NCBI RefSeq assembly: GCF_038632915.1
Contig: NZ_CP152050.1
Location: 2,635,001 to 2,699,000 of the forward strand
Reading direction: 5' to 3'
From: Paenisporosarcina sp. FSL H8-0542
GTDB lineage: Bacteria; Bacillota; Bacilli; Bacillales_A; Planococcaceae
Length of the DNA: 64,000 bases
Of this stretch, positions 14,695 through 35,218 are shown piece after piece (within the stretch, counting starts at the first letter, position 1; the number at the start of each line of letters is the position of its first letter). The translations under genes and the position numbers were made by a program. The notes beneath the pieces are model-generated. The model did not search any database, was not told where the DNA came from, and saw nothing but the letters and a program-made list of their open reading frames with translations.

Positions 14695-15018
14695 AAAATC
14701 GCCCCCTACTTTCTTCGTTTCAGTGTATGAACGAATAGGTGACGATAGGACAAGAATAAGCCAGATTTATTTTTATTGGCTATGTTATTTTTCACTGTTG
14801 ATTTTATGAAAGAATGAATCTGTGCCCTTTCCGCGGACGAACTGGCAAGCCTCCTCGGGCCAACAGGATGTTGGTCACGAAGGCGTTGACACAAAATTGT
14901 ATTTTGCGACGAGTAACCGCAGGAGCAGGGAGGTGGTGGTGTCCTTAGCCTTCATTCCTTTATCCTCACTGTGGGGTCTTGCCAGCCAAGATTATGGTCA
15001 AAGGTGTTTGACCATATC
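14695..15018. repeat. Intergenic repeat region before the 34-bp array
   Basis: No gene is seen. From 14822 the stretch holds dispersed repeat B: CTTTCCGCGGACGAACTGGC, then CTCGGGCCAACAGGATG and GGTCACGAAGGCGTTGACAC, and one isolated copy of the 26-bp core of the neighbouring tandem array at 14903. Similar sequence recurs at 28033-28113, with a related piece at 50004-50080. Elements of this CTTTCCGCGG...GCCTCCTCGG type are common between genes in Bacillales. Confidence 0.7.
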
Positions 15019-15316
15019 TTTGCGACGAGTAACCGCAGGAGCAGCTTTATTCTTTGCGACGAGTAACCGCAGGAGCAGACCTATTCTTTGCGACGAGTAA
15101 CCGCAGGAGCAGCCCTATTCTTTGCGACGAGTAACCGCAGGAGCAGCCCTATTCTTTGCGACGAGTAACCGCAGGAGCAGCCCTATTCTTTGCGACGAGT
15201 AACCGCAGGAGCAGCCCTATTCTTTGCGACGAGTAACCGCAGGAGCAGCCCTATTCTTTGCGACGAGTAACCGCAGGAGCAGCCCTATTCTTTGCGACGA
15301 GTAACCGCAGGAGCAG
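15019..15316. repeat. Nine-copy 34-bp tandem repeat
   Basis: Nine head-to-tail copies of a 34-bp unit start at 15019, 15053, 15087, 15121, 15155, 15189, 15223, 15257 and 15291. The 26-bp core TTTGCGACGAGTAACCGCAG+GAGCAG is invariant. The 8-bp linker is CCCTATTC in six copies and differs slightly in the first two; the last core runs into unique sequence. The unit is not a multiple of three and has no obvious dyad symmetry. Confidence 0.95.
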
Positions 15317-25246: not shown

Positions 25247-25288
25247 ATATAGTCTCAAGGTTTTTTTATATAGTCTCAAGGTTTATTT
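25247..25288. repeat. 21-bp tandem duplication in the secA leader
   Basis: ATATAGTCTCAAGGTTT occurs at 25247 and again at 25268, so the period is 21 bases. It lies 16-57 bases before the secA start codon, in the 5' leader or promoter area. Confidence 0.85.
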
Positions 25289-25328
25289 TACCACTGCAAC
25301 TATAGGGGTGCAAATGACGGCTATATCT

Positions 25329-27719: not shown

Positions 27720-28202
27720 CCAATCCCCTCCCCTATTTAAGTGAAGTACCTAGCAATTAATAATGTAATAATTCGCTTCATTCGAGTGAATTCCTCCTCA
27801 ATCGACAAATAAATCAATTTTAAAGGCTATGTTCAGCAATACTGTTGCTTTTGTCCGTTTGTACTAGCCATTCGCTCCGCTTGAGGCATTCTGGCGCAAA
27901 TCATTTTTTAACATCAACTGCATTTATACAAATCATAATTTTTACTGCTGTTAAATGATGCTGCTGTTTATCGCCATTCGCGCTAGCCGCATGAGCCAAC
28001 AATTATGCATATCACATATTTGTTAGTCTCACACTTGGGCCAACATGAAGTGGGTCATGAAGGTGTTGCCACAAAATTTCTCGCATTGCATTTTGCAACG
28101 AGTAACCGGAGACTCAGGACAAGGCGTTTTTAACCTTCTTCCCCTGGAATGCAGGCGCAAATACACTCTTTCTTATCAACAGCTTTATTTTGCTTAATAA
28201 AT
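27720..28202. repeat. Intergenic region with degenerate repeats A and B
   Basis: No gene is seen. Repeat A is at 27966-28005 (GTTTATCGCCATTCGCGCTA then GCCGCATGAGCCAAC). Repeat B follows at 28033-28113 (TTGGGCCAACATGAAGTGGG, TCATGAAGGTGTTGCCAC, and TTTTGCAACGAGTAACCG, a relative of the 34-bp array core). Fragments near 27838-27905 and 28150 (GGCGCAAAT) also look related. Confidence 0.65.
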
Positions 28203-29552: not shown

Positions 29553-30904
29553 TGCCTGTATCCACCCTGCTTATTGTGAGCTTCTATAGTAGCTTTGGCT
29601 GTATCCATGGCAGACGAAATTCCATGATGAAAAAACACCAGATCTCCATCAGGATAATCTATCGCTCGACCGACACGCCCACCTATTTGGATTAATGCAC
29701 TGCTCGTAAAAATCGTCTCATCAGCACCTACTACTGCTACTTGAACATTAGGAATCGTGATTCCTCGCTCCAAAATGGTCGTTGTCAGCAAGCCACAAAC
29801 TTTTTTCTGACGCAATTTAATGACCTTATCTTTTCTATCATTGTCTTCTGCATGGACTGACAAAATTTCCGGATGCAACAGCTGAAATAAGGGCAAAGCT
29901 TTTTCCATGAGTTCAATAGTAGGGAAGAAAATTAAAAAAGGTCGGGAGTGGTTCAAGCAATTTAAAGTCCACATCTTTAATTTTGGGGGAAGTTTACCTT
30001 TCTGAATGTGCTTATGATAATTCCACAACCCGACAAAACGTGGTATCGGTAGAGGAAAACCATGAAACCTTACAGAAATGACCGATTTATTAACAGCTTG
30101 TCTTAAAAGTTCATCAGATGGTGTAGCTGTAATAGTATGGACAACAGCTTCTTTCTTTTTCGCTTTTTGCACTGCATATTGCAGAGCTTTATCCACTGTA
30201 TATGGGAAAGCATCCGCTTCATCGACAAACACGACATCAAAAGCTTCTTCAAATCTGTAAAGTTGATGTGTTGTTGCGATGATGAGCTGTGCGTAGTCCG
30301 TGTAACCCGGAGAGCCACCATATAAAGCATGAATAACTGTTTGCGGAAAAACTTGCTGGAATCTCGGCGCAAGCTCCAGTACAACATCTGTCCTTGGAGT
30401 AGCCACACATACACGTTGTCCCCTCTCAAGCAAATCAAATACAGCAGGAAACAATAATTCCGTTTTTCCAGCTCCGCATACGGCATGAACTAAATGACTT
30501 TGATTTCGACGGACGCTGGCTAGCAATTCATTTGAAGCTCGTTCTTGTTGGGATGTCAATTTGCCAGACCATGAAAACCGATGTGACTGGACTTGTTCAA
30601 TCACAGGTCCAGTCCATGTTATCAACTCCGTGCAACTGCTCACTCTGCCCATACGAATGCAATGCCTGCAATAAAAGCAAACACCTTTACATTTTGCACA
30701 GTGGAAAGAGGTCAATTGGTTAACTCCGCAACGACGACATTGGTGTTGATTGGTTTTTAGTAATGGTGAAAAATGAGTTGATGAAATGCCTTGATGAGGG
30801 GTAATAAATCCTTTTTCAATTAAATCTTCTATGTCGGATAAAGGAAATGGGGTTTGTTCCTTCAACCATAATCGGCCACTTAAAAATGTTTGTATCTCTT
30901 TCAT
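29549..30904 (-). CDS. comFA: Competence DNA helicase ComFA
   Basis: A 451-residue DEAD-box ATPase that pulls incoming single-stranded DNA into the cytoplasm. The N-terminal four-cysteine zinc site is visible (CRRCGVNQLTSFHCAKCKG and following CFYCRHC), then Walker A (AVCGAGKTELLFPAV), the DEAD box (VVFVDEADAFPY), SAT-like TITATPSDELLR and motif VI (ALIQIGGRVGRAIDYP). ATG 30904 is preferred to ATG 30910 because GGAGG is then seven bases away. comFA-comFC form a two-gene operon. No ComK box was recognised upstream. Confidence 0.94.
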   Translation of the reverse strand: MKEIQTFLSGRLWLKEQTPFPLSDIEDLIEKGFITPHQGISSTHFSPLLKTNQHQCRRCGVNQLTSFHCAKCKGVCFYCRHCIRMGRVSSCTELITWTGPVIEQVQSHRFSWSGKLTSQQERASNELLASVRRNQSHLVHAVCGAGKTELLFPAVFDLLERGQRVCVATPRTDVVLELAPRFQQVFPQTVIHALYGGSPGYTDYAQLIIATTHQLYRFEEAFDVVFVDEADAFPYTVDKALQYAVQKAKKKEAVVHTITATPSDELLRQAVNKSVISVRFHGFPLPIPRFVGLWNYHKHIQKGKLPPKLKMWTLNCLNHSRPFLIFFPTIELMEKALPLFQLLHPEILSVHAEDNDRKDKVIKLRQKKVCGLLTTTILERGITIPNVQVAVVGADETIFTSSALIQIGGRVGRAIDYPDGDLVFFHHGISSAMDTAKATIEAHNKQGGYRQ

Positions 30905-31177
30905 GAGCATCCCTCCAATACGGATATCTCATTCCTACCATTTAATCATAATCCCCAATTGTGGAACTCGCCAATTTAAGATGGGCATATTGGTGTATGG
31001 AGAGGGAAAATTTTTAACAAAGAAGTTGATATTATGAAGGAGTGTATTTGCACCTTAAATGCCGCAAGAGCTTGAAGCGTGTGTTAAGCGGATTTCATAC
31101 TAGTTAGCTCTGGCGGAAGATTGAAGATAGCTCAAATACGTTGATTTACAGTTTAATGTAACTGGGCCTAAATAATA
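30905..31177. repeat. Gap upstream of comFA with a faint repeat A relative
   Basis: No gene is seen. Around 31085-31140 the sequence CATACTAGTTAGCTC followed by TACGTTGATTTA resembles parts of the repeat at 21365-21427 in reverse order, but it is too degenerate to be certain. The promoter of comFA must lie between 30910 and about 31050. Confidence 0.3.
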
Positions 31178-31203
31178 AGAACCTCGCACTTATGCGAGGT
31201 TCT
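31178..31203 (-). terminator. Terminator after the lipoprotein gene
   Basis: Perfect 11-bp stem AGAACCTCGCA / TGCGAGGTTCT with a four-base loop, then TATTATTT on the minus strand, eight bases past the stop. Confidence 0.8.
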
Positions 31204-31211
31204 CGTCTTCT

Positions 31212-31796
31212 TTATTCCGCTACATCACCGATGAAGTAGACACTGCTGACACGCCAGTTTCCATCCTCTTTGGCAAAAACGGTTACTTGTCGACCTGTTC
31301 GGTCAAGTTTAGCACCTGTTGACTCCTGTTCAAGCGAGATTGCAAGTGACGCAAAGACCTGTGCTTGGCTTTTGTCATACTTAATGACTGTCACATCTTC
31401 AGCTGTCCGTTTAACTTTATATTCTTTAAACGTTTTTTTAATCATCTCTTCTTCTTCCTTGTAATCAAACCCTTCAGGTTCTTTAGCGATGACAGACATA
31501 TACGTCTCAAAGTCTTCGTTATTAAAAGAAGTCATATAGGTGTCAAACGCAGCCAATATTGCCTTCTTTTCATCTGCTGGCACATCTTGTGCCTCTTCAA
31601 TATCAGAACCCGACATCTCAAAGCCAACATCAGATTGTTCCTGATCCTGATTCTTCACACCATGTTCTAATGCGTTATTTTCACTTGAAGTTTCCCCATC
31701 GGAAACGGAACCTGCACCGCCTCGGTCTTCTTCACTTGCACAAGCAGACAGTAATATTGAAATTAGCGCTAACACCATCATATATTTGAATTTCAT
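31212..31796 (-). CDS. Lipoprotein with NTF2-like C-terminal domain
   Basis: A 194-residue secreted lipoprotein of unknown function. The lipobox ISILLSACAS puts the lipid-bearing cysteine at residue 19. A low-complexity acidic linker (about 25-75) is followed by a domain of about 115 residues (AILAAFDTYMTSFNNEDFET, then ending GNWRVSSVYFIGD) that has the look of an NTF2/SnoaL fold, often a ligand-binding or regulatory cone. It is monocistronic and, together with the neighbouring NERD gene, occupies the place between comFA and degU where B. subtilis has degV. Confidence 0.8.
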   Translation of the reverse strand: MKFKYMMVLALISILLSACASEEDRGGAGSVSDGETSSENNALEHGVKNQDQEQSDVGFEMSGSDIEEAQDVPADEKKAILAAFDTYMTSFNNEDFETYMSVIAKEPEGFDYKEEEEMIKKTFKEYKVKRTAEDVTVIKYDKSQAQVFASLAISLEQESTGAKLDRTGRQVTVFAKEDGNWRVSSVYFIGDVAE

Positions 31797-31953
31797 TATA
31801 ATTCGTCCCTCCTACTCGGCTATTTTGTCATAAAATGATTGCCCTTACAATAATTATAGCCGCAATCAGAATAGAGACGACACCCATCATGTGAAAGTTT
31901 CGTGTATTAAAGCGTAGGATTGTTGGATGGCTTCGGATTATAGTGGGCTGTTT
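31797..31953. other. AT-rich gap upstream of the lipoprotein gene
   Basis: No gene is seen. On the minus strand a perfect TATAAT (31856-31851) lies about 54 bases before the lipoprotein start and could be its -10 box, but no convincing -35 stands 16-18 bases upstream of it. Confidence 0.3.
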
Positions 31954-32040
31954 CCATTTTGTGCAACCTGGAAGGCTAAACTGTCTACCTGGAATCCAAT
32001 CTGTCTACCTGGATGGGCATTCTGTCTACTTGGAAATCTT
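31954..32040. repeat. 21-bp repeat array 1, left of the NERD gene
   Basis: After CCATTTTGTGCA there are four units beginning ACCTGGA or ACTTGGA at 31966, 31987, 32007 and 32028 (21, 20 and 21 bases, the last incomplete), each ending CTGTCT. The same leader and unit recur at 33175-33291 in the same orientation, on the other side of the NERD gene. Confidence 0.9.
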
Positions 32041-32119
32041 TTCTAGTAATTCAGTTGCAACTAGATGGATAAAAATGCTATTTTTACATTATCCCAAAGA
32101 CTAGAAGGAGTGATATTTT

Positions 32120-33106
32120 ATTGTCGGAAATCGAGAAACACCTAAATCGTTAACGGTTTACCTTCGCTTACTAAATAGAGTACCCAAAGAACATCCGCTT
32201 TATAAGGAAATCGAATCGAGAATCAATCGGATTCGTGCTGGGTACAGCGGTGAAACGTATGTGGACAATTTTTTAAAGAATATTGATTTCCCATGTCCAT
32301 ATGTCATCTTTAAAGACATTAATGTTCAAACTTCAGCAAACACAAAAGCCCAGTTTGATACATTAATCATTACACCAAAGTTTGTATGTATATTAGAAAT
32401 AAAAGCATTGAAAGGTCGAATCTCTTTCCACAAGACTCCTGCCCAATTAGTCAAAGAAGTCGACGGAGTTAAAACTTCAATGAAATGTCCAGAGGAGCAA
32501 CTGAAACGTCATGAAAGAAGATTGGTTAAATGGTTGAATACAAATCAAATATATCTACCCATACGAAGTGCTATTGTTTTCGCATTTTCTAGCACCCTTG
32601 TAGATTTGCCCCCTAGGTATTCCAACATAGTGATGGGCTGTGATGTCGGTTCTTATATTGAAGACCTATTTGATCTCCCTCCCGCACTTACAGAAAAAGA
32701 ATTCAATTCATTAATCGACTCCCTGCAACAGGCTAAAACGAATTATTCCCCCACCCCACTAGTAAATACTGTCCCAATTCTAGATTCAGAGATTGTCAAA
32801 GGATTACTTTGCCCGCAATGCTCTATGAATATTGGCTCTCTTTATAAATGTCCTACCTGCAAAATTACGAGGAAAGTAATCATTGCGAATGCTCTCGAGG
32901 ATTGGTTTTATCTAATGAAAAGCACTATTACTACAAGAGAATGTCTGGATTTTTTGCAACTAAGGGATAAAACATCTGCATCACATATTTTAAATAGAGC
33001 TAAATTGATACCTAAAAACAATGGTCGCTATAGATTTTATAAATTATTTGACGATGACTATGAGGGTTCTTTTTCAATTCGAGCTGAAGCGCTTGAAAAA
33101 AAATAG
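32120..33106 (+). CDS. NERD-domain protein with C-terminal zinc ribbon, apparent ATT start
   Basis: A nuclease-related-domain protein of about 328 residues. The PD-(D/E)xK-like core is visible (AQFDTLIITPKFVCILEIKA), then a Cys4 zinc ribbon (LLCPQCSMNIGSLYKCPTCK) and a small C-terminal domain. The first standard start, GTG 32261, would remove some 47 residues that fit the family N-terminus (PKSLTVYLRLLNRVPKEHPL, then RIRAGYSGETYVDNF). That frame opens after a TGA at 32111 without ATG, GTG or TTG; ATT 32120 stands nine bases after AAGGAG. So either ATT initiates or the start codon has decayed. Function, perhaps DNA processing, is unproven. Repeat arrays flank the gene on both sides. Confidence 0.8.
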   Translation: MVGNRETPKSLTVYLRLLNRVPKEHPLYKEIESRINRIRAGYSGETYVDNFLKNIDFPCPYVIFKDINVQTSANTKAQFDTLIITPKFVCILEIKALKGRISFHKTPAQLVKEVDGVKTSMKCPEEQLKRHERRLVKWLNTNQIYLPIRSAIVFAFSSTLVDLPPRYSNIVMGCDVGSYIEDLFDLPPALTEKEFNSLIDSLQQAKTNYSPTPLVNTVPILDSEIVKGLLCPQCSMNIGSLYKCPTCKITRKVIIANALEDWFYLMKSTITTRECLDFLQLRDKTSASHILNRAKLIPKNNGRYRFYKLFDDDYEGSFSIRAEALEKK

Positions 33107-33117
33107 GAGTTTGTGCT

Positions 33118-33291
33118 TCTTGGACGTTTATTCTGTCCCATGACAAGTTTTACATGAAAATACCATGTCACTTTTCATTTTGTGCAACCTGGATGGCCAT
33201 TCTGTCAACCTGGAACCCAAAACTGTCTACCTGGATCCTCATTCTGTCAACCTGGATCCTCATTCTGTCTACCTGGAACACTAAACTACAC
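33118..33291. repeat. 21-bp repeat array 2, right of the NERD gene
   Basis: A degenerate unit at 33118 (TCTTGGACGTTTATTCTGTC) is followed by leader TCATTTTGTGCA and five units starting ACCTGGA at 33187, 33208, 33229, 33250 and 33271, each exactly 21 bases apart. The two central units are ACCTGGATCCTCATTCTGTC plus A or T. Leader and unit match array 1 at 31954. Confidence 0.92.
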
Positions 33292-33321
33292 ACCCGACCC
33301 ATTGTCATCTCACTAAAAATC

Positions 33322-33348
33322 AAAAAACCCCTCACATTTGTGAGGGGT
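33322..33348 (-). terminator. Terminator after degU
   Basis: Stem ACCCCTCACA / TGTGAGGGGT with a two-base loop and six T on the minus strand, 12 bases past the degU stop. An opposing T-run is weak, so it mainly serves degU. Confidence 0.88.
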
Positions 33349-33359
33349 CCAATTAGTAA

Positions 33360-34034
33360 TTAGCGTACTTCAACCCAGCCATTTTTAATAGCTGTTACGA
33401 CGGCTTGTGTACGGTCGTTTACATTCATTTTTTGAAGAATGCTAGAGACGTGATTTTTCACTGTTTTTTCAGAGATGAACAATGTTTCACCGATCATGCG
33501 GTTACTTTGGCCATCTGTTAATAATTGAAGAACTTCACATTCACGTTTTGTTAGTAAATGGAAAGGACGTCGAATTTCGGATTGGTGGAACGTTCCTTTA
33601 TTTTCACGTTCACTCAAACGACGGAATTCCGCCACTAAATTACGTGTTACTTTTGGATGTAAGTAAGATCCACCTGCTGCAACCACTTTAATGGCTTGTA
33701 CAATTGCGTCAGCATCCATTTCTTTCAACATGTACCCAAGAGCACCTGTTTTCAGAGCGTGCGTAACGTAAGATTCATCGTCGTGGATAGATAACATGAT
33801 TACTTTGGCTTCTGGATATTTCGCCATTAGCTCACCTGTTGCTTCTACTCCATTTTTACGTGGCATGTTGATATCCATCAATATAACTTCCGGTGCATAT
33901 TGCTCATACAAATTTAAAGCGTCGCTTCCATCATCGCCTTCAGCAATTACATCAAATGAATCTTCAAAGTCTAGAATTCGTTTTACCCCTTCACGGAATA
34001 ATTGGTGATCGTCTATAATTACAATTTTCGTCAT
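33360..34034 (-). CDS. degU: Two-component response regulator DegU
   Basis: A 224-residue NarL/LuxR-type regulator that in B. subtilis controls secreted enzymes, competence, motility and biofilm. The receiver domain shows the acidic pocket ([17 protein letters not shown]) and the phosphoacceptor aspartate in [13 protein letters not shown]. The C-terminal helix-turn-helix ends in [22 protein letters not shown] 34034 is chosen over ATG 34040 because GGAGG is then eight bases away instead of two. It lies 29 bases after degS. Confidence 0.97.
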
Positions 34035-34063
34035 CGTCATTTCCTCCTAAATATAAGCAGACC

Positions 34064-35218
34064 TTATCTCTCTTTTTCCTCAATTAAAGGAATTCGAAAC
34101 ATCATTGTTGTTCCTTTGCCAGGTGAGGATTTCACAACCATTTCACCTTTTAATAGATCGACACGTTCTTGCATTCCAAGTAAACCAAATGAACTATCCC
34201 GAACAAGGCGCTGATCAAAACCAATTCCGTTATCTTTCACCGTAACGGCTACTTTGTTCTTATTCCATACAACTTCTACCCAAATTGTTTGGCATTTGCC
34301 ATGTTTTGTCGCATTCGTCACAGATTCCTGAATCAGGCGAAATAGCGCTACTTCATAATTCGGTAAAAGTCGACGCTGTTCTCCATTTGAATGGAAGTGT
34401 ATTTTGCACCCCATATTATATTCTTCGATAGTCATTAAGTATTTTTTGAGGGTAGGGACTAAACCTAAATCGTCCAATGCCATTGGTCGCAAGTCATAAA
34501 TAATTCGTCTTACTTCCGACAGAGCATTTCGTACCATCAATTTTAAACTTGAAATTTCTACTAGTGCCTGATCAACACCTTTTTCACGATAAGTCCGTTC
34601 AATCAAATCTGATCGAACTAAAACATTGGCCATCATTTGGGCGGGACCGTCATGTATTTCACGAGATAGCCTTTTTCGTTCTTCTTCTTGTGCTTCAATA
34701 ATTTTCAAACTGAAATCTTGTTTTAATTTCGCGGTTTCCAATGCTTGTCCAACATTTTTCAAATCCGATGTTAAGTAGTTGGTAACCACGTTGGCCTGTG
34801 TAACAAGTTGATCGGCATGCAAAATAGCATCGTTTAATTCATTTAAACGACGTTCCAAATCATCTCTACGTTCCCGTAGTTGGCGATCTTCCGTACGATT
34901 AATTGAAAGTTTAATTTGTAAATCGTTTGCTTGTTCATAAGCCTCACGCACTTGTTCTTCCGTAAACGTGTTAAAATGCTTGGATACATCGCCGAGCCGC
35001 TTTCTTGAAAGACGGGTATCTTCTTCAAGCAAATCACCTTCTATTAATACATCAGCTAATTTCGAATGGACAATTTCCAATTCTTTTTGCATTTGTAATA
35101 AGCTTTGTCGATTTTGTTCGCTTATAATGAAAATATCGTTTTTGGAGCGGTCCATCGTTTCAACCATTTGGCTGAAAATATGATCTAAAGAATTGATATC
35201 GACCTTTTTCCCTGACAT
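34064..35218 (-). CDS. degS: Sensor histidine kinase DegS
   Basis: A cytoplasmic HisKA_3-type kinase of 384 residues, the partner of DegU; B. subtilis DegS has 385. The first half is a long coiled-coil sensor. The phosphoacceptor histidine is in RLSREIHDGPAQMMANVLV and the ATP-binding domain has VTNATKHGKCQTIW and DNGIGFDQ. No membrane segment is present, as in B. subtilis. ATG 35218 was chosen over ATG 35242 because GGAGA precedes it by seven bases. It begins the degS-degU operon, divergent from yvyE. Confidence 0.96.
   Translation of the reverse strand: MSGKKVDINSLDHIFSQMVETMDRSKNDIFIISEQNRQSLLQMQKELEIVHSKLADVLIEGDLLEEDTRLSRKRLGDVSKHFNTFTEEQVREAYEQANDLQIKLSINRTEDRQLRERRDDLERRLNELNDAILHADQLVTQANVVTNYLTSDLKNVGQALETAKLKQDFSLKIIEAQEEERKRLSREIHDGPAQMMANVLVRSDLIERTYREKGVDQALVEISSLKLMVRNALSEVRRIIYDLRPMALDDLGLVPTLKKYLMTIEEYNMGCKIHFHSNGEQRRLLPNYEVALFRLIQESVTNATKHGKCQTIWVEVVWNKNKVAVTVKDNGIGFDQRLVRDSSFGLLGMQERVDLLKGEMVVKSSPGKGTTMMFRIPLIEEKER

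Follow-up and report, generated by a model that had tools for sequence, protein, structure and literature searches.

A NERD-domain gene between direct 21-bp repeat arrays in Paenisporosarcina, and a candidate repeat-plus-enzyme system of Bacilli

Does a gene that lies alone between two matching repeat arrays travel with those arrays, or does its product act on them? This question is raised by a locus of Paenisporosarcina sp. FSL H8-0542 that was noticed in a stretch of 64,000 nucleotides (the window). The original prediction, made from the letters of the window, described a NERD-domain gene framed by two arrays of 21-bp units and offered two readings: a small cassette that entered or moved by recombination between the arrays, or a nuclease-like protein with its own binding sites. 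The locus was analysed within the window and compared with related genomes and with NERD loci from across the Bacilli.

The layout was confirmed in the window: two 21-bp arrays of the same orientation, with four and five units, and a single NERD gene between them (Table 1). This array–NERD–array segment stands between degU and the lipoprotein-like gene on the comFA side (31212–31796, minus strand), which also belongs to the degU–comFA interval. Both arrays have the unit core CTGTCWACCTGGA and lie on the strand of the NERD gene (+). Motifs of the ACCTGGA/ACTTGGA type occur at 31966, 31987, 32007 and 32028 in the left array (spacing 21, 20 and 21) and at 33187, 33208, 33229, 33250 and 33271 in the right array, where the spacing is uniformly 21 bp. 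The 21-bp period consists of a 13-bp core and 8 variable bases, unlike a CRISPR array with its long repeats and unique spacers, and a CRISPR-like array was rejected on this ground. Tandem Repeats Finder (TRF) gave scores of 84 (left) and 118 (right) at period 21; when the 64-kb window was shuffled 50 times under a first-order Markov model, no 19–23 bp array scored 80 or more (maximum 59). A known structured RNA family was ruled out for the arrays, as an Rfam search over 30500–34500 returned no match at E 0.5 or better.

The window also holds repeats of other kinds. A 34-bp tandem repeat occupies 15017–15316 (8.8 near-identical copies, score 579), and two copies of a 21–22 bp unit, ATATAGTCTCAAGGTTTATTTT, at 25247–25290 are perhaps a short array of another type. 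A separate dispersed repeat, TATTTGCGCCTGCATTCC ... TTGTTGGCTCATGCGG, is present at 27987–28163 (minus strand) and at about 31042, as well as in L251 and L376; it is intergenic in the window genome and in G101 and has a variant form in G006.

Table 1. Positions of the arrays, the NERD gene and the parts of its product in the window
Feature	Position	Strand	Basis or detail
Left array	31956..32035	+	Leader ATTTTGTGCA from 31956, four ACCTGGA/ACTTGGA units
Candidate ribosome-binding site AAGGAG of NERD gene	32105..32110	+	Sequence reading; probable
NERD gene	32120..33106	+	Probable ATT start, 327 residues (P0001) from 32123, TAG stop
NERD nuclease domain	32240..32581	+	Pfam match, residues 40-153
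Zinc ribbon C230-C246	32810..32860	+	CPxC...CPxC
C-terminal segment, three helices and two strands, residues 250-307	32870..33043	+	AlphaFold2 secondary structure
Right array	33177..33277	+	Leader and five units; orientation as left array

The first ORF with an ATG, GTG or TTG start in the NERD frame begins at 32261, and the conserved coding frame starts further upstream. Judged from the sequence, translation probably begins at the ATT codon that follows the AAGGAG motif. Such starts recur among the 105 NERD loci described below: 15 frames contain no ATG, GTG or TTG from the upstream stop to 15 codons into the conserved domain, and in most of these a good ribosome-binding site precedes an ATT, ATC or ATA codon. 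A looser count, in which starts at the 105 loci were chosen by a Shine–Dalgarno rule, gave ATT, ATC or ATA at 32 loci and no start at 16. Annotation will misplace the starts of the genes that lack ATG, GTG and TTG, and weak translation of these genes may be intended.

The enclosed gene had been named as encoding a NERD protein with a zinc ribbon, and this identification held. P0001 matched Pfam PF08378 (E 1e-14, 55.4 bits, gathering cut-off 22.1), with no other Pfam family and no reverse transcriptase match, and the CPxC...CPxC motif is visible; PF08378 likewise matched all nine members of A1. Residues E44, D79, E92 and K94, which from knowledge of the superfamily we take to be the PD-(D/E)xK catalytic residues, are invariant across 61 aligned sequences. 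In the zinc ribbon C233 and C243 are invariant, and C230 and C246 are present in at least 90 % of the 61 sequences. The AlphaFold2 model, built from 61 sequences (pLDDT 94.2, pTM 0.88), has the nuclease part, the zinc ribbon and the C-terminal segment in that order, and residues 250–307 appear winged-helix-like in our reading of it. The predicted product is a PD-(D/E)xK nuclease with a zinc ribbon and a winged-helix-like tail. Foldseek comparison of the model with solved structures gave no match at E 1e-3 or better. The top match, an R2 retrotransposon endonuclease chain, was weak (E 1.6e-3, TM 0.26 on the query). Next in the ranking came Can2, a Holliday junction resolvase and further chains, most of them nucleases; Nt.BspD6I was also among the top matches. 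A sequence search of solved structures reached E 0.076 at best and matched mainly zinc-ribbon regions.

NERD domains are common in Bacilli, with a relative in 67 of 250 genomes sampled from the class, and a check for co-occurrence of NERD genes and arrays gave a clear positive result. An array with a period of 19–23 or 39–44 bp was present within 1.5 kb at 88 of 105 complete NERD loci (84 %) vs 2 of 48 control windows (4 %; Fisher P about 3e-22, a value that ignores relatedness). The loci are a non-random set of genus search matches, loci of the best wider-search matches and 40 further hand-picked matches; 120 remained after removal of duplicates, and 15 were dropped for an incomplete domain or a flank shorter than 1 kb. 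The control windows were drawn from 12 regions in 12 genomes. Arrays stood on the left at 46 NERD loci, on the right at 72 and on both sides at 30, and on both sides in none of the controls. The best period was 21 bp on 66 flanks, 42 on 26, 40–41 on 18, 20 on four, 52 on three and 31 and 43 on one each; seven further flanks had other periods, one each. Array periods are thus mostly whole turns of the DNA helix. Two of the 17 loci that lack a 19–23 or 39–44 bp array have 52-bp arrays. A cruder test, the direct sharing of at least three 11-mers between flanks, separated loci from controls less (56/105 vs 15/48). Arrays of period 20–21 were carried by all 13 loci of a genome-contig search (Paenisporosarcina and Psychrobacillus-like records). 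In the genus search, TRF arrays of 20–21 bp were found at 22 of 30 loci, down to proteins about 25 % identical with unrelated cores; the eight loci with no TRF array include the eroded copies of G004 and G101.

Arrays of 52 bp were also observed elsewhere. They are scattered as tandem arrays over a sample of G251 (L391, L393, L395, L398, L400, L403, L404, L407 and L315), with TACCCTC...GAGGG arms in L391, L407 and L315, and they flank two distant NERD genes (L356 and L357). They could represent a second class of array.

Repeat cores vary from one NERD lineage to another, in step with protein relatedness. Sharing of at least two array 9-mers, oriented alike relative to the gene, was seen in 22 of 31 protein pairs with at least 60 % identity (one of these pairs also has inverted matches), in 8 of 34 pairs with 50–60 % identity and in 131 of 4030 pairs below 50 %, where inverted sharing was seen in 58 of 4030. 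Locus pairs are not independent, so P values for 9-mer sharing are only a guide. Between the two flanks of a single locus, shared 9-mers were direct at 27 of the 31 loci with arrays on both sides, inverted at one and undecided at three. An insertion sequence with inverted ends was ruled out by this direct arrangement, and the locus also differs from insertion sequences and MITEs in having no terminal inverted repeats. The winged helix was at first favoured as the seat of repeat specificity by 18 hand-chosen pairs. It was dropped when same-core pairs showed no relatively better conservation of the winged helix (P 0.67); the zinc ribbon was not relatively better conserved in these pairs either (P 0.31).

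Arrays of the window type are dispersed over the 3.63-Mb window genome, in which the 13-base core had 35 matches with at most one mismatch vs two for the backward pattern. Fifteen arrays were found at 13 places, each consisting of the leader and one to four further units. Fourteen array stretches were checked against stop-to-stop ORFs of 100 codons: 11 overlap none, and three overlap ORFs of 123–144 codons whose reality is uncertain. The window genome and G005 have a single P0001-like gene apiece, the next matches being 43 % identical or less. The 15-base leader, with one mismatch allowed, was found in 23 of 101 genomes, with nine matches in G003, four in G004, 15 in G005 and one or two in each of the others. 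Of 15 array loci fetched from G005, 11 have an aligning array locus in the window genome; the other four have none. A private, recently entered cassette is ruled out by these dispersed arrays, which are mostly at places common to relatives. Unit numbers differ between the window genome and G101 despite aligned stretches that are mostly 97.6–99.5 % identical.

Other NERD loci of the genus carry arrays of the same period and other sequence: CCAACTTGG at G003 C8:7467 and in G007 (where the left side is cut by the contig start), CCTACGTSA at G003 C8:83442 and G005 C36:599, and CCAACGAAA at G005 C36:184k. All three have a single orientation on both sides of the NERD gene. Tandem pairs of these cores were counted in nine genus genomes, with backward-pattern controls of 0–3 per genome. 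CCAACTTGG had 301 matches in G007 and 76 in G003, both of which carry the NERD gene of this type, seven in G004 and 0–2 elsewhere; because this core is almost identical to its reverse complement, the majority of places are counted on both strands, and the counts correspond very roughly to 150 places in G007 and 40 in G003. CCTACGTSA had 118 matches in G005, 84 in G006 (45 of them exact), 16 in G003, seven in the window genome and 0–1 elsewhere, and CCAACGAAA had 33 in G005, which carries the NERD gene of that type, and 0–4 elsewhere. A search of G006 for a CCTACG-type NERD gene found no cognate, the one relative being 25 % identical and having its own different array. In another genus, G044 has one NERD match with CGCTCATAG arrays on both flanks, and a 338-kb sample of its chromosome held 51 CGCTCATAG pair matches in five arrays vs none for the reversed core. 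A 418-kb sample of G251 gave one pair match for its own NERD core and one for the reversed control, which proves little alone. Across 99.5 kb of G040 just two arrays turned up, both of them weak and both unlike the units at its NERD loci L268 and L328. Array dispersal is general but uneven.

Many CCTACG and CCAACTTGG modules share one form, with GATT or CTATT, the units and then a terminal hairpin, CAACTGAGC-N4-GCTCA (TGAGC...GCTCA). Modules of this form lie on either side of the gene as well as at dispersed sites, and some copies vary. In L186, L205 and L135 many modules follow one another in tandem at intervals of about 290–315 bp, which indicates that module and flank together have been duplicated.

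The comparison of relatives at the window locus itself bears on the cassette reading. The order comFA, lipoprotein gene, interval, degU, degS is the same in G001, G003, G004, G005, G006 and G007, and the contents of the interval vary. It holds an intact NERD gene with CCTGGA arrays in the window genome and G005, a NERD pseudogene with eroded arrays in G004, a solo two-unit array in G003, a decayed CCAACTTGG-type module, read by eye, in G007 and a NERD gene 31 % identical with other repeats in G001; in G006 neither NERD nor array is visible. In G101, a strain of the same species (L132/L251), NERD and array remnants lie between the same flanks, split by an 8.4-kb insertion; its start lies within the left array, and the beginning of the NERD gene has been lost through it. 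These contents indicate gain, loss and replacement at an old shared position. Gain and loss of the segment were thus seen, and repeated loss fits the reading of a small mobile cassette in part. Recent entry does not fit, given that gene and arrays occupy the same interval in at least three species and that the array loci of G005 largely align. The arrays are also not strictly tied to the gene, and to this extent an outcome that the original prediction named as refuting it was observed: window-type arrays occur in G101 and G003, where an intact gene of the type is lacking, and G006 keeps its 84 tandem pairs of another type with no cognate NERD found.

Units look eroded where the intact gene of the type is gone, in what are small samples. 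In the two genomes that retain an intact window-type gene, the core is perfect in 23 of 40 and in 23 of 54 units, vs 17 of 38 in G101, none of four in G003 and none of seven in G004 (for G003 and G004, three arrays each, picked by leader matches). A decay test of G101 vs G000 gave core damage of 7 to 2 (P 0.18). One candidate for an insertion lies downstream of the HPF gene, where G006 has two CCTACG modules. No such module is present at this site in G004 and G007, in which the gene next to HPF (presumably SecA-like) matches that of G006, nor in the window genome, G003 and G005, in which another gene follows; the G101 stretch is incomplete. The site is filled in G006 and empty in relatives, with boundaries too diverged for a target-site duplication to be read. 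A clean pair of filled and empty sites with target duplication was sought and not found, and the comparisons revealed neither a transposition event nor a definable target duplication.

The second reading of the original prediction, a nuclease-like protein with its own sites, is supported at the level of sequence by array co-occurrence and by the match of array sequence to protein lineage. Recognition of its own array by the NERD protein would be the simplest account of the lineage-matched cores, the orientation and the helical phasing, and we consider it very probable. The protein would bind the 21-bp units as cognate sites, and sites two helical turns apart would place its copies on one face of the DNA. 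Each type would have one gene, flanked by its own repeat module, and many extra copies of the module in intergenic DNA, with protein and repeat co-diversifying over time. On balance we lean towards a two-part system of a sequence-specific NERD nuclease and cognate 21-bp units that recognises, maintains or spreads the modules. Maintenance or spread is suggested because the catalytic site is intact, because the modules have a recurring form and because copy numbers differ between relatives. The erosion of units where the gene is gone and the filled HPF site of G006 point the same way. The enzyme would copy, extend or refresh the modules over time, probably through a cut or nick at or beside the array DNA, after which repair would copy the array. 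We infer such cutting and active spread less confidently than binding. The association, orientation, lineage match, dispersal and intact catalytic motif that favour this explanation are all observed. So are the limits on module maintenance, namely the shared array places, the lack of any observed transposition, the small decay samples with the G101 result and, as the main counter-evidence, the orphan pairs of G006. Also counting against the explanation are the 17 loci with no 19–23 or 39–44 bp array, the weaker separation by shared 11-mers, the failure to map specificity to a domain and the G040 and G251 samples.

The arrays could instead be operators or anchoring sites in a chromosomal binding system that has no mobility, serving control of the NERD gene itself or a function linked to replication or the nucleoid. 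Their spread would then be due to duplication and recombination of the ordinary kind. Helical phasing agrees with this, as do array places that are largely common to two species and mostly outside long ORFs, arrays that flank the gene and the lack of an ATG, GTG or TTG start in some NERD genes, which is consistent with tight control. We nevertheless regard it as rather unlikely, because site numbers for one core range from hundreds to 0–7 between related genomes, all 61 aligned sequences retain the nuclease motif and whole modules with their terminal hairpin recur at unrelated sites. An improbable account of the whole is that array–NERD–array enters or leaves as a block by recombination between same-orientation arrays. 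Loop-out would leave just such a solo two-unit array as G003 has where relatives have array–NERD–array, and the direct flanking arrays at 27 of 31 loci would permit it; however, gene and arrays share one interval in at least three species, so that entry must have been old, and recombination, which can account for loss, leaves the lineage-specific cores, the helical phasing and the dispersed arrays unexplained.

A role in defence or self-marking, in which the host chromosome is labelled by its arrays and DNA that lacks or gains them is attacked by the nuclease, is very improbable. In a scan of defence models MAD6 weakly matched all nine aligned members (best E 2.5e-9) and PglW six of nine (best E 2.7e-5), but in the window protein these matches span part of the nuclease domain (residues 44–103 and 59–102) and the MAD6 score is 18.5 bits vs a cut-off of 460. 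Several NERD–array pairs coexist in one genome, and P0001 had no match in phage and plasmid collections and A2 no relative among viral contigs, which also ruled out phage or plasmid cargo. Hardly credible is a coincidence or hot spot that concentrates arrays around NERD genes independently of the protein: the controls were not free of arrays (2/48) or of 11-mers shared between flanks (15/48), but the core follows protein lineage and orientation, and the array rate was 84 % vs 4 %.

The two-part system of nuclease and cognate units that we favour has its closest parallels and clearest differences among known repeat systems. In the REP/RAYT system a gene of each type stands beside its own repeat cluster, with extra extragenic copies and a repeat flavour for each gene, and there is little lateral transfer at the species level (PMC3116915). 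Likewise, the NERD gene adjoins its own repeat type, NERD repeats are dispersed in extragenic DNA, and one gene per type was seen for the P0001 type (window genome and G005) and in G044. In contrast, RAYT is an HUH Y1 transposase and the protein here a PD-(D/E)xK NERD nuclease with a zinc ribbon and restriction-like structure matches. REP sequences are palindromes, mostly in inverted pairs, whereas the window repeats are direct, helically phased tandem arrays, although a TGAGC...GCTCA hairpin does close the CCTACG and CCAACTTGG modules. By analogy the NERD–array system would work like REP/RAYT, but it lacks both the Y1 transposase and the palindromic repeats that define the latter. Tn7-type transposons have several transposase sites of about this spacing arrayed at their ends; in the window, by contrast, the arrays on the two sides are direct repeats, and what they enclose is a NERD gene. 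The R2 endonuclease and Nt.BspD6I are weak structural matches, and R2 differs in that the NERD protein has 327 residues and no reverse transcriptase match.

Staphylococcal SmdA, PglW and MAD6 have the nuclease-related domain (PF08378) in common with the protein described here. According to the SmdA paper (PMC9040797), there had been no earlier study of NERD function in bacteria, and several residues conserved in NERD are missing from SmdA, whereas these are invariant in the 61 sequences here. A thaumarchaeal casposon carries a NERD-domain nuclease as accessory cargo on a mobile element, and the portion of that account drawn on here mentions no repeat array (PMC6563490). Among the papers listed in searches of the open-licence PMC literature, none was recognised as linking NERD proteins with repeat arrays. 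A gene between its own arrays, scattered copies of these arrays and the recurrence of the pairing with different repeats make this look like an undescribed repeat-plus-enzyme system. More tentatively, and with slightly less than even confidence, the NERD nucleases of Bacilli could be the enzymes of an undescribed class of dispersed repeats, each of them maintaining its own helically phased direct-repeat module and spreading it over the host genome. This would be a counterpart of RAYT/REP of independent origin, derived from a restriction-like nuclease, whose repeat specificity has switched many times. The role of NERD has so far been poorly understood, and through the arrays the family becomes linked to particular DNA sequences, legible in every genome, with dozens of natural protein–site pairs ready for binding tests. 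If the spreading of modules is real, it would give bacterial intergenic repeats a new origin, by way of a nuclease unrelated to RAYT.
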